From Spirochaetota bacterium (GTDB lineage Bacteria > Spirochaetota > UBA4802 > UBA5550), in assembly GCA_017999915.1 (NCBI GenBank), contig JAGNKX010000008.1:124001-188000 (forward strand): DNA of 64,000 nucleotides. The letters are read 5' to 3'. Position 1 is the stretch's first letter, and every line of letters starts with the position of its first letter. Of the stretch, positions 49,697-55,370 are shown piece by piece. The position numbers and the translations under genes were made by a program. The notes beneath the pieces were generated by a model. That model worked only from the letters and a program-made list of their open reading frames with translations. It did no database searches and was not told where the DNA came from.

Positions 49697-51103
49697 CTAT
49701 CGCGCCTCGATGCCGATAAGGACCATGTCGTCTTCCCGGGAAGCGCCGCGGCGAAATACGTCTATGGCCCCGGCGATGTAATCAAGGGTCTCTTCGATGG
49801 ACCGGCCGGTCCTGTGGGCGTCGTGAATCAGCGAGAGAAAGGCGTCGAAGCCGAATATCTCGCGGTCCTCGTTTACCGCTTCTATAAAACCGTCCGTATA
49901 CAGAAAAATCCGGTCCCCCGCTTGAAGGGGGACCGCCACCGGGGATTGGGCGATATCATTGAATAATCCAAGGGCAATGCCCGGAGCCGTTACGTATGAA
50001 ACGGCGTCCATCTCTTTCCGGTAGAGGACGGGGAAGGGGTGACCCGCTTTCGCGAAGGTGAAGGACGCGGCCGTATCGTCTCCACGGCTCACGATGCCGT
50101 ATATGGCGCTCAGAAAATGCGACTGCATCGATTTGCACAGCTCCTGGTTGAGGACCCGGAGGAAGTCGGCGGGATTGAGCCCGTGGTCCCGCAGCAGCCG
50201 GTCGCTGACCGCCTTGATCATCATGGTGTAGAGGGCAGCTTCGACGCCGTGACCGGAGACGTCGCCGATGAAAATGCCGAGGGAGTCTGTTTCCTTGAAG
50301 CTGGTGAACGAGAGAAAGTCTCCGCCCAGCGCGTCCATGGGGGAGTAGAGGTACGCCACCGTCACCAGGCTTGACCGGGGCGGCTGCTGGGGCAGGATCG
50401 CCCGCTGCACCTGCTGGGCCGCTTCCATTTCCTGGCGGTTCTTTTCCACCCGGAGGCTGAGCTCCCTTGTTTTTTCATCCACCAGGTCCTCGAGGTGCCC
50501 GGCGTAGGTGTCCCGTTCCCGCTCGAGTCGTTTGCGATCTGTTATGTTTCTCGTGGAGCCCTGCACTCCAACGAGGGTGCCTTCGGCGTCGCGCAGGAAC
50601 CGCGTGTTGATTTCGACCCAGATGGTGCCGCCGTCCTTCGTGTATTGCTCCGCCTCGAAGATGATGCTGCGGTGCGGATCGTAGAGGCCGGTTTTCTCTT
50701 TTCCCAGCTCGCTTTCAATGAACCAGAGTACCCGTTTGAGATGCTCGGGGGGAAAAACATCCTGGAGGCGTTCGCGGACTCCTTCCTCCATCGTGAGCCC
50801 CCGCATTGCTAAAATCGCGGGGCTGATGTAGGTGAAATTGAGGGTTTCGGCGTCAAGGACCCATATGATGTCATTGGAATTTTCCGCGAGGAGGCGGTAT
50901 TTTTTTTCGCTTTCCTTCAACGCCTGTTCGGCCTGGATGCGCTCGGTGACATCCTGGAGAATGCCGGAAAAGCCGATTATTTCTCTGTTATCGTTATAGC
51001 GCGCGTAGATGGATGCTTCAATATGGAGTATGGCGCCGTCGTTACGGATGATGTCGTAATTCGCCCTGTCCTCTTTGCGGGTAAGGAAAATCCTGTGGAA
51101 CAC
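49697..51103 (-). CDS. PAS-SpoIIE phosphatase, downstream part of an amber-interrupted gene
   Basis: The 468-residue frame continues the upstream one in the same phase after a single TAG at 51116-51118. It begins in the second half of a PAS domain (SGILQDVTERIQAEQALK), then has a full PAS (~60-190), a coiled coil, and a PP2C/SpoIIE domain (~235-465) with GGDFLSFT, DVSGHGVEA and FLYTDGFIEAVN. The GTG at 51103 has only a poor ribosome site, so independent translation is doubtful. As a whole it is an 804-codon sensor phosphatase. Confidence 0.8.
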   Translation of the reverse strand: MFHRIFLTRKEDRANYDIIRNDGAILHIEASIYARYNDNREIIGFSGILQDVTERIQAEQALKESEKKYRLLAENSNDIIWVLDAETLNFTYISPAILAMRGLTMEEGVRERLQDVFPPEHLKRVLWFIESELGKEKTGLYDPHRSIIFEAEQYTKDGGTIWVEINTRFLRDAEGTLVGVQGSTRNITDRKRLERERDTYAGHLEDLVDEKTRELSLRVEKNRQEMEAAQQVQRAILPQQPPRSSLVTVAYLYSPMDALGGDFLSFTSFKETDSLGIFIGDVSGHGVEAALYTMMIKAVSDRLLRDHGLNPADFLRVLNQELCKSMQSHFLSAIYGIVSRGDDTAASFTFAKAGHPFPVLYRKEMDAVSYVTAPGIALGLFNDIAQSPVAVPLQAGDRIFLYTDGFIEAVNEDREIFGFDAFLSLIHDAHRTGRSIEETLDYIAGAIDVFRRGASREDDMVLIGIEAR

Positions 51104-51115
51104 CTCGTATACGTT

Positions 51116-51118
51116 CTA
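51116..51118 (-). other. Single in-frame amber codon splitting a PAS-SpoIIE gene
   Basis: Reading GCG-TAG-AAC on the minus strand, the frame on both sides is the same and codes one continuous PAS domain. A GAG to TAG change is the simplest origin (alignment residues ...PRTA-E-NVYEVFH...). It may be a real nonsense mutation, read-through, or a sequencing or assembly error. Confidence 0.85.
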
Positions 51119-52111
51119 CGCCGTCCGGGGCGTCATGATGCTCGTGTACTCTATGCCCTGTTCCAGCTGTTCCCGCGTCAGTCCTGACAGCTGAAAGGCG
51201 GCATTGTTCAAATAGGTAAACCTGCCGTCCAGGTCGGTCTCAAAATAGCCTTCGCCCATATTTTCAAGTATGTTCCGATATTTTTTCTCGGATTGTTCAA
51301 GGGAAATCCTCATGTCGCGCAGTTCGGTGATATCCCGGGCGACGCCGTAAAAATAGGGGGCCCCTTTGTCATGGGTCAGTATGACATACTGGCCGAACCA
51401 GATTGCCGTGCCGTCGCTTTTTAGAATGGGCAGCTCATGGTAGGTTTCAGGAGTTTTTTTTTGGAGCTGGTCCCTGTAAAAACCATATTCCTGGGCTTTA
51501 AGCTCCGGAGGAATGATATCAGTGTAGTTGAGGCGGTAGAGAATTTCAGGATCGTAGCCGAGCTTTTCGAGTCCGGCCGGATTCATATACACGAAATCGC
51601 CGCGAGAGGTGCATTTGTAAATGATATCACGGGCGCTTTCAACGAGGAGCCTGAATTTTTCCTCGCTATCCTGCAGCGCCGTCATGAGTTCATTCGTTTC
51701 CGTGATATTCTCGCAGATAACCAGTATCGACGGCGTCCCGTCGAAAATGATGGGCGTGCTCGATCCGCGCACGAACAGCTCGCTTCCGTCCTGTGACATC
51801 AGCGCCTGCTTGGAGTACTGGATCGTATCCTGCGACTTTTTGCGCAGAGCCAGGCTGCGGAAATAGAGATCGTGATAGTCGGGATTGATAAACCGGGAAA
51901 GGGGTTGGCCGATTATAATTGACCGGTTTCCGCCGGCCAGCAGTGCGGCGGTGTAGGAATTTGCGTATGAGATGACACCGTCGGTATGGATGAAAATAAG
52001 GATAGGGGATAATTCCAGTATTTTGGTGAAGCTTTCTTGATTTTCAGACAGGTCCATTTTACCGGCTCTTGGTATTAGGTTTTGCCAGGGAACTGATCGG
52101 TGAGGAATCAT
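51116..52111 (-). CDS. PAS-domain protein, upstream part of an amber-interrupted gene
   Basis: 331 residues: PAS1 (~15-135), PAS2 (~140-260) and the first half of PAS3, ending at TSIMTPRTA before the TAG. The truncated PAS3 is completed by the next frame. If translation really stops here, the product is a cytoplasmic three-PAS fragment without output. Start ATG 52111 lies in an AT-rich stretch with no strong Shine-Dalgarno. Confidence 0.75.
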   Translation of the reverse strand: MIPHRSVPWQNLIPRAGKMDLSENQESFTKILELSPILIFIHTDGVISYANSYTAALLAGGNRSIIIGQPLSRFINPDYHDLYFRSLALRKKSQDTIQYSKQALMSQDGSELFVRGSSTPIIFDGTPSILVICENITETNELMTALQDSEEKFRLLVESARDIIYKCTSRGDFVYMNPAGLEKLGYDPEILYRLNYTDIIPPELKAQEYGFYRDQLQKKTPETYHELPILKSDGTAIWFGQYVILTHDKGAPYFYGVARDITELRDMRISLEQSEKKYRNILENMGEGYFETDLDGRFTYLNNAAFQLSGLTREQLEQGIEYTSIMTPRTA

Positions 52112-52359
52112 TATTGATCCGTTTCGCCATATTCATGATGATTCCGATGTATCATCGGTAATATTTTTCATTCGCTGGTTTGACGTCAACATATTTATTA
52201 TTGAATAAAGTTATGATATCCCGCCTTTATTTTTGTCATTGACAATGGATCTCTTTTATTCCATGGGTATTCAATGAAAACAGTAATGCAGCGGGATGCC
52301 TTCCCCTGTAATTATCGTGTCGGCGTAACAGCCGATGAGCTCATACCACGGAGGAGCAT

Positions 52360-53277
52360 ATGAGACACCTGATATCCATCCTTGCCATATCCGTCATTAT
52401 TGCCGCCGTATCGAGCTGCAAAAAGGACGATTCCAATAAAACCATCACGGTTAACAGCCTGGTGGGCGACGTGAAGGTCGCCGCCGGCGGCGCGGAAAGG
52501 ACCGCGGTCGTGGGGGATGTCCTCGCCGCTGGAGACACCGTCAGGACCGGGACCGATTCCATCGCGGACATTCTGTTCGGGGATGCCGGTATAATGCGGA
52601 TCCAGCCCGGCTCCAGCGTTTCAATGGCGTCGATCATGGACCCCGCAACGGGCGACACGAGGCTGGACATGCCCGAGGGGACGGTCACCGTCACCCTGTC
52701 GAAGCTGAAAAAGGGGACCTTCAGCGTGAAAACGCCCACCGCTGTCGCGTCCGTGCGGGGCACCACGTTCCGCTTCAGCGCCGGCCAGAAGGCGTCGCGG
52801 CTCGACGTTGTCACCGGCGTTGTTGCGGTAAGCCCCGTGCAGAACAATGCCGTGGTCCCGGAGGTGGAAAAAGCCGTTTCAGCGAACCAGACCGTTGAAC
52901 TCGATGAAAAGACGGTGAAAGAGGTGGTGGAGAAAAAGAAGGAGATCAAGGTCGCCGAGTTGAAGCCGGAGGATATCAAGAAGATTCGGGACGAGGTCAA
53001 GGATATTAAGCCGGAAGTTCTGGATAAGCTCAACAATGAGGCGCGGCAGGAGATAAAGGAAAAGATACTGCCTCCCGCCGAGACCAAGGACAGCAAAAAG
53101 GAAGAGAAACCGGTTAAAGGAAAGGAACAGACGCGGAAAATGCCCACTGGCATGAAAGCCGCTGAAGAGAAAGCCCCTGAAAAGACTCAACCGGCAATAC
53201 CGAAGCCCGAGAATAAACAGAAAGGAAAACCGAAAGACGAGTCGGGAAGCTCGCCGGCGAGCGTGAACGTTTTCTAG
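52360..53277 (+). CDS. FecR-domain lipoprotein with charged tail
   Basis: Lipoprotein signal ending AAVSSCKK (Cys ~20), FecR-like domain (~30-140) with VVGDVLAAGDTVRTG and VASVRGTTFRF, then a Lys/Glu-rich, Pro-rich tail (~180-305). Similar spirochaetal FecR proteins sit in the periplasm. It is not next to FecI or TonB receptors, so iron signalling is uncertain. GGAGGAG precedes the ATG. Ends close to the convergent decarboxylase gene. Confidence 0.82.
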   Translation: MRHLISILAISVIIAAVSSCKKDDSNKTITVNSLVGDVKVAAGGAERTAVVGDVLAAGDTVRTGTDSIADILFGDAGIMRIQPGSSVSMASIMDPATGDTRLDMPEGTVTVTLSKLKKGTFSVKTPTAVASVRGTTFRFSAGQKASRLDVVTGVVAVSPVQNNAVVPEVEKAVSANQTVELDEKTVKEVVEKKKEIKVAELKPEDIKKIRDEVKDIKPEVLDKLNNEARQEIKEKILPPAETKDSKKEEKPVKGKEQTRKMPTGMKAAEEKAPEKTQPAIPKPENKQKGKPKDESGSSPASVNVF

Positions 53278-53312
53278 CGTGTCCGGTGGCGGTCAGCCCT
53301 CCGGGAGCCGTT

Positions 53313-54641
53313 CTATTTTCGCACAACAGTGGCGATGCGAGACCTGACGGGGATGTTTTTCGAATGGAGCCCCGGGGTTTCGCCGTGCAGGTCGAACTCG
53401 AGCCCGACCGCGGGACGGAATATCAGGCAATGGGTGGAACCGCCGAAATGGAACATGCCGAGCTGGTCGCCCTTCCGCACGCGCTGGCCCTCCCGTACCG
53501 TTATCTCGTTTGACGATACCTCCGCCATCCCCACGAACATCACGCACATGAGGCCGATGGCCGGATTGTCGGCCTGTATGAATATCAGCGCCCGGGCCGC
53601 GACCTGGGTGATGTATCCCTGCGACTCGTTAGGCCCGGCCGGATCGAATCCTGCCGAGAGGGCCTCCGCGTAATAGGACCCGTCCACGAGCCTGGTCTTC
53701 ACGATCTTCCCGCTGACGGGGCTGTGCCACCGGTGATAGCTCAGGGCGCTCAGGAAGGCCTGGTACACGGTGCCGCCGATGAACTGCTCCACCAGGGGGT
53801 CTCCCGCCATCATGTGATAGAGCGAATAGGGCTGGGCCTTGATCCAGAACCGGTCGGTGCCCTTCACCGCCGTTGCCAGGCGGTAGGGAGCTGATTCGCA
53901 GGCGTTGGCTATGACCGCGTCGTCCCCGGGGCTCGCCAGCGGGCGCCGGCCGTCGCGGAACTTCCGTGTGAAGAAATCGTCCCAGGAGGCGAAACCGTGA
54001 TAGGGCGCCGAAGGATCACACAGGTAATCCTCGACGAAGGTTGGCATGGCCTTTTTCGCGTCGCGGCCGAACCAGCCTTTTTCCGGATCGTCGTTCAGGA
54101 CGTAGCGGGAATCCTTCGACGCCAGGAAGAGGGCCCACTGGTTCAGGATTTTTTTCAGACAGCGGTTAACCTTCTCGTTCAAGAAGAGGGCTGTTCCGGC
54201 GCGGGTGGCCATCGGCCAGTTCACAATGGCGTTGATGGGGAAGCCGACCAGGTCGGTTTTGTTGAATTCCGGCGCAGTGGCCATGATGTGGTTGAGGACC
54301 CGCAGCATCTGGCGGTAGTCCCTTATCTGGGGCCGGCCGGTGGGGTCGTTCCTGAATTCCGGCGTTGCGGGGACCTGCTCGAACATTTCGGTGAAGATCA
54401 TGTATATCTCCGGGTCTCCTTCGATCAGCTCCCTGAGCTCCCGCACGGCCGGATGCAGCGGCCGGGTATCCCTGTCCGCTTCGCTGATCCGCTCATCCGT
54501 CCAGCGGTTGATGATCGTCCGGTCGGTGGGGAGCCATCGGCCGATAAGGTAGGGATTCTTCGCCGATAAACCCGCGGCAATGAAGTACACCGCCACTGCA
54601 ATGGCCGCCACCGAGACGAAGACAATGATTTTTTTCATCAT
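53313..54641 (-). CDS. Phosphatidylserine-decarboxylase-family protein, PsiD-like, membrane anchored
   Basis: Self-cleaving pyruvoyl enzyme family. One N-terminal helix (IIVFVSVAAIAVAVYFIAAG), a PSD-associated region (~60-180) as in PsiD, then the decarboxylase domain with HRWHSPVSGKIV and the cleavage motif FHFGGSTHCLIF (GGST). The architecture is nearer to PsiD-like decarboxylases than to E. coli Psd, so the substrate may be an amino acid or a lipid. Start ATG 54641 after GGAGGG. It follows the zinc-ribbon gene by 13 bases. Confidence 0.85.
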   Translation of the reverse strand: MMKKIIVFVSVAAIAVAVYFIAAGLSAKNPYLIGRWLPTDRTIINRWTDERISEADRDTRPLHPAVRELRELIEGDPEIYMIFTEMFEQVPATPEFRNDPTGRPQIRDYRQMLRVLNHIMATAPEFNKTDLVGFPINAIVNWPMATRAGTALFLNEKVNRCLKKILNQWALFLASKDSRYVLNDDPEKGWFGRDAKKAMPTFVEDYLCDPSAPYHGFASWDDFFTRKFRDGRRPLASPGDDAVIANACESAPYRLATAVKGTDRFWIKAQPYSLYHMMAGDPLVEQFIGGTVYQAFLSALSYHRWHSPVSGKIVKTRLVDGSYYAEALSAGFDPAGPNESQGYITQVAARALIFIQADNPAIGLMCVMFVGMAEVSSNEITVREGQRVRKGDQLGMFHFGGSTHCLIFRPAVGLEFDLHGETPGLHSKNIPVRSRIATVVRK

Positions 54642-54654
54642 GGAATCCCTCCTT

Positions 54655-55176
54655 CTATAGAGACGGGAATATTCCGTTAAAGAAGACAAGGAGCCCCAGG
54701 CCCCATGCCAGCGATCCGACCAGCGCGATGAGGGCCGGCCACGGTTTGTTCACGAACCTTTCGGCGAAAAAGAAAAAGTGCGCCGGCAGCGTGACCAGGG
54801 GGCTCCTCCCCTCCATGGAGAACCAGAGGGCCCGCGCGGCACGCATGTCCGCCGCCCGATGTGACGCCATTATCTCAAGGAGCTTTTCAGCGTGGTATCC
54901 GTATAATCCGAATGTAATGAGGAAAAACCAGAGAGGCGTCAGGTTGACGAGCTGCGTTTCGCTCAGGCGGTCAAAGAAAAAAGCGTATATGGCGACGCAT
55001 ATCGCGACTCCCGAGCCGATCATTATGGGGTAGATGGCTCTTTTTCTGACGCCCCGGCTTGTAAATATATTGGATACGGGATTGATGTTATCCCGGTCGT
55101 AAAAGGTCCCGCAGTAGGGGCACTGGGCCCTGGACGGATCAACGGTGCCGCCGCAATTAATGCAGTTGGGTGTCAT
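54655..55176 (-). CDS. Zinc-ribbon membrane protein
   Basis: A 173-residue protein. The N-terminal zinc ribbon has NCINCGG and AQCPYCG. About four hydrophobic helices follow (AIYPIMIGSGVAICVAIYAF, LTPLWFFLITFGLYGY, WPALIALVGSLAWGLGLLVF). ATG 55176 is chosen over the longer frame. It is upstream of and probably co-transcribed with the PsiD-like gene. Function unknown. Confidence 0.65.
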   Translation of the reverse strand: MTPNCINCGGTVDPSRAQCPYCGTFYDRDNINPVSNIFTSRGVRKRAIYPIMIGSGVAICVAIYAFFFDRLSETQLVNLTPLWFFLITFGLYGYHAEKLLEIMASHRAADMRAARALWFSMEGRSPLVTLPAHFFFFAERFVNKPWPALIALVGSLAWGLGLLVFFNGIFPSL

Positions 55177-55370
55177 CGCTTTTTTCCCCGATGGATTCAG
55201 CCGCAACGCAGCATGAGCCAGTGAAACCGAAATTTGATTTTAATCAAGTGTTATTTTTTTCTTGCCATGATCGGCTTCTTCCGTCATGTAAGGATTGTTT
55301 TTTCATGAAGATCGATTCGGCCCGGCACGGCAGCGCGCTGCGTCCGGTGCCCGTCTCCCTGGTGATAATA

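Follow-up and report, generated by a model that had tools for sequence, protein, structure and literature searches.

Many bacterial genes carry a single in-frame stop, among them one in Paenibacillus where TAG and CAG alternate at one site, and such stops tend to be short-lived, with lifetimes like those of population polymorphisms (Belinky et al. 2021, PMC7918605). The gene described here lies in a 64,000-nucleotide stretch of a Spirochaetota genome, here called the window. It resembles these recent nonsense alleles (PMC7918605) in having one in-frame stop, in being otherwise intact and in evolving under purifying selection, but here the comparison rests on one sequence of the species. It also resembles the PAS-SpoIIE (PP2C-type) serine phosphatases, having PAS sensors followed by a C-terminal PF07228 domain with its conserved acidic motifs kept, whereas its frame is broken in the third PAS domain. 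An in-frame stop inside a conserved domain is likewise what is seen in pyrrolysine and selenocysteine recoding; here, however, our searches recovered no PylS, no CUA tRNA and no RNA structure, in contrast with a UGA-selenocysteine candidate encoded elsewhere in the genome.

The minus-strand frame running from 52123 to 49697 is interrupted once, by the TAG at 51116-51118, and is itself terminated by TAG. The codons around the internal stop read ...ATG ACG CCC CGG ACG GCG TAG AAC GTA TAC GAG GTG..., and the two open reading frames on its sides, 51116-52111(-) and 49697-51103(-), share one frame in which this TAG is the sole break. Judging by alignment with the start of the closest relative, translation most likely begins at ATG 52057 rather than at 52111, which places the TAG at codon 314 of 786. 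The single uninterrupted reading frame of a PAS-SpoIIE phosphatase is therefore lacking, and the locus comprises:

49697..52057, minus strand: complete gene for the PAS(x4)-SpoIIE phosphatase, 786 codons long and closed by the TAG at 49697-49699 (frame continuous bar one TAG; full-length relative in the same-genus genome G004)
51116..51118, minus strand: premature TAG, in frame at codon 314, where the closest relative has CAG (Gln) (frame and alignment with G004)
51116..52057, minus strand: truncated reading frame with PAS 1-2 complete and part of PAS 3, without the phosphatase (frame and domain search)
49697..51103, minus strand: downstream open part with the remainder of PAS 3, PAS 4, a coiled region and the SpoIIE phosphatase (frame and domain search)
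49703..50287, minus strand: intact catalytic domain of SpoIIE type (PF07228), scoring 144.6 bits when the genome was searched (profile match and alignment)

Translated through the stop, the frame matches PAS_9 in four stretches (130.3 bits) and SpoIIE (141 bits), with PF07228 and PAS above their curated cut-offs, and the strongest PAS_9 stretch (residues 291-394 in this translation) crosses the stop (residue 336). The TAG thus sits within the third of four PAS domains, 5' of an intact SpoIIE domain, and the motifs GGDF, GDVSGHG, YTDGFIEA and REDDM are kept in both the window sequence and that of G004. The gene contains no second stop and no frameshift. These results bear out the sequence-only reading, which had described a four-PAS SpoIIE phosphatase split by a single UAG, with both sides in one frame, one PAS domain continuing across PRTA-TAG-NVYEV and the rest intact. 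A chance juxtaposition of two open reading frames is ruled out by the uninterrupted 796-codon frame found in the same genus. Promoter-like sites were not above chance. As a separate observation, five consecutive open reading frames in positions 49697-55206 of the window (the split gene counting as two) are all terminated by TAG, vs 22% of genes.

We searched 59 related genomes, five of them in the same genus. The uninterrupted counterpart in G004 is 67% identical over 784 query residues, and it has CAG at the stop site, reading TPETA-Q-KVFEAF against TPRTA-TAG-NVYEVF in the window. One C-to-T change therefore suffices to produce the TAG, and the sense codon in the relative is not the GAG that had been proposed. 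No match to the gene in any of the 59 genomes has an internal stop; multiple further stops in relatives had been named as an observation that would refute the sequence-only reading. The remaining genus members have only paralog-level matches (<=43% identity), leaving an ortholog in one of the five genus relatives, and the genes flanking the G004 copy differ from those flanking the window gene; together, these two facts indicate that the gene is accessory. A search of genome contigs returned the G004 relative and distant matches only, with no same-species strain. In its own genome, the protein matches 144 places, of which this one alone has an internal stop, and 52 SpoIIE domains are encoded in 5.5 Mb, none with an internal stop in the domain. 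Many of these 52 domains belong to long frames in which the PAS part of the query finds a match too.

The rates of evolution of the two halves of the gene were estimated against G004 by the Nei-Gojobori method, giving a dN of 0.24 and a dS of 1.34, which, being above 1, is near saturation. The dN/dS ratio is 0.20 before the stop and 0.16 after it, third codon positions carry most of the changes on either side, and relative-rate counts against eight paralogs reveal no excess of protein change in the window lineage in either half. Given that a second stop is lacking, neutral drift since the mutation is bounded to less than about 0.04-0.05 substitutions per site, vs a dS of about 1.3 to G004, and to less than about 0.01 when indels are included, on the assumption of 0.1 indel per substitution. 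Equal constraint, lack of further decay and even relative rates imply either a young stop or ongoing translation of the downstream part; that the downstream half is constrained like the upstream half would also fit continued translation. Two marks of a recent nonsense mutation are present: an intact relative has a sense codon that differs from the stop by one step, and no further decay is seen.

Is UAG a special codon in this genome? RF1 (prfA) is intact (523.6 bits for a cut-off of 423), with the GGQ motif and the PxT tripeptide (PTT), and TAG terminates 384 of 1724 well-supported genes (22%), so neither loss of RF1 nor avoidance of TAG as a terminator, the marks of a reassigned UAG, is seen. 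In these 1724 genes, backup stops are not in excess after TAG relative to TAA and TGA. The amber suppressor tRNA and Pyl genes suggested by the sequence-only reading were searched for: no PylS was found above the cut-off in the genome (best match 28.5 bits, cut-off 178), and no tRNA with a CUA anticodon (CTA) was found among the ARAGORN-readable ones of 51 genome-wide tRNA matches, nor in a 2.75 Mb scan, which could miss an unusual tRNA elsewhere. Two of the tRNA matches are unreadable by ARAGORN with default settings. One, at C4:288204-288404, is a tRNA-Ile (GAT) carrying an insertion of 27 bases just 3' of the anticodon loop; it could be a pseudo-tRNA or contain an unusual intron, and a normal tRNA-Ile (GAT) is also present. 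The other, at C3:6048-6213, is a truncated tRNA-like 3' piece with TAC at the anticodon position by manual reading; it is flanked by copies of a GTAACCC...GGGGTTAC sequence in inverted orientation and could be an attachment-site remnant. Programmed read-through likewise lacks its signatures: the stop is not conserved (CAG in G004), and the 106 bases 3' of it fold no better than shuffled sequence (z 0.43), leaving no stimulatory structure. Of the titles and abstracts consulted on pyrrolysine in spirochaetes, none was pertinent.

We scanned 2.75 Mb (half of the genome; an earlier pass covered 1.6 Mb) for in-frame stops that have coding signal both 5' and 3' of them, and assessed the candidates, partly by eye, against paralogs (all-pairs blastp with a coding-frame filter), Pfam and genus relatives. 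Many in-frame stop pairs were rejected on inspection as ordinary neighbouring genes or antisense shadows. Besides the PAS-SpoIIE gene, five further genes are each broken by a single TAG:

C8:246050, minus strand: beta-propeller-like repeat protein (sister repeats, and two of the five paralog segments aligned, have Q)
C2:46609, plus strand: PrsW protease carrying a cNMP-binding domain (a relative at 79% identity lacks the stop)
C1:63518, minus strand: acyl-CoA synthetase (no stop at this position in relatives)
C1:805770, plus strand: FecR (relative in five of five genus genomes, none with the stop)
C2:322599, minus strand: acyltransferase 3 (Pfam domain spans the stop; no genus relative)

The sole comparable in-frame TGA, at C1:77475(-), is in a formate dehydrogenase gene and is presumably its selenocysteine position; a tRNA-Sec is present in the sampled sequence. 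Its recovery indicates that the survey does detect true recoding. Beyond this site, the 2.75 Mb yielded no TGA or TAA break that we recognised as comparable. Given the genome's codon usage, TAG is expected to make up 52-58% of single-mutation nonsense events, and CAG to TAG is the largest nonsense class at a transition bias of at least 2. All five other broken genes having TAG is slightly above this expectation, which counts against plain mutation: the probability of five in five is about 0.04-0.07 under the mutational null, a post hoc value computed on candidates partly judged by eye. The outcome is thus slightly unusual and gives a weak hint of a leaky UAG.

We consider the best account of these data, and a likely one, to be a nonsense mutation that arose recently in a redundant accessory gene and probably inactivated it. 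Under this account, 1) one C-to-T change would have turned a glutamine CAG into TAG in one of the many PAS-SpoIIE phosphatase genes; 2) translation would be expected to stop there because UAG is a normal terminator in this genome, and to end after 313 residues with a PAS-only fragment devoid of phosphatase; 3) the downstream part would be expressed weakly at most; 4) the loss would be tolerable because the gene is accessory and redundant, with SpoIIE domains encoded about 52 times genome-wide and an ortholog in only one of five genus relatives; and 5) the allele would be too young for decay. The TAG itself, the CAG of the relative, the retained constraint and the normal machinery for terminating at UAG are observed, whereas the direction of the change, the loss of function and the correctness of the base are inferred. 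Among the three alternatives raised by the sequence-only reading, the G004 codon, the constraint and the rates favour the very recent nonsense mutation; regulation by read-through found no support, and an artefact appears unlikely.

Such an artefact would be an error of sequencing, assembly or binning consensus, the living population having a sense codon. The assembly is a draft in 29 contigs and the one sequence of its species available for comparison; the TAG could accordingly reflect a consensus error or a minor allele, and a gene wholly intact in its remainder is consistent with this. On the other hand, the change from CAG to TAG is the single step by which the codon of the relative would most likely become a stop (at a transition bias of at least 2), no frameshifts accompany it, and the TAG sites of the other genes have no obvious sequence motif in common. 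Rather less probable is low-level read-through of UAG by a near-cognate tRNA, yielding some full-length phosphatase with the TAG as a brake on expression. It would account for the constraint persisting 3' of the stop and for the five other genes with single private TAGs, including a FecR gene that has relatives in the five genus genomes, without recognised TGA or TAA counterparts apart from the selenocysteine site; moreover, stops of this kind have been argued to be common and often not to mark pseudogenes (PMC7918605). Yet RF1 is intact, neither a suppressor tRNA nor a downstream structure was found in the searches above, the stops have no obvious context in common, backup stops are not enriched after TAG, the TAG itself is not conserved, and mutation alone predicts that over half of such events would be TAG. 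In a broader and still more doubtful version, UAG would be mildly leaky in this organism, nonsense alleles being tolerated genome-wide when amber, though not when opal or ochre, and some of the amber ones, including the PAS-SpoIIE TAG, would tune protein levels. It is highly improbable that the gene has been split in two, into a protein with PAS domains only and a phosphatase initiated anew at GTG 51103 or a later start: this GTG, four codons 3' of the stop, is the nearest possible restart, and downstream constraint is retained, but no ribosome-binding motif was seen 5' of it, the restart would fall inside a PAS domain, and no relative has this arrangement. Finally, recoding of UAG as pyrrolysine or by a suppressor tRNA, which several genes with single in-frame TAGs might have suggested, is largely refuted by a PylS and a CTA-anticodon tRNA both missing from our searches and by TAG truly terminating this same gene and 22% of genes.

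The case is of value mainly as a calibrated negative: a lone stop in an intact and constrained gene resembles recoding, yet a very recent C-to-T change in a redundant gene would explain it. For similar finds, the survey supplies both a background, of about six amber-broken genes in the half genome surveyed, and a positive control, the UGA of the selenocysteine candidate.
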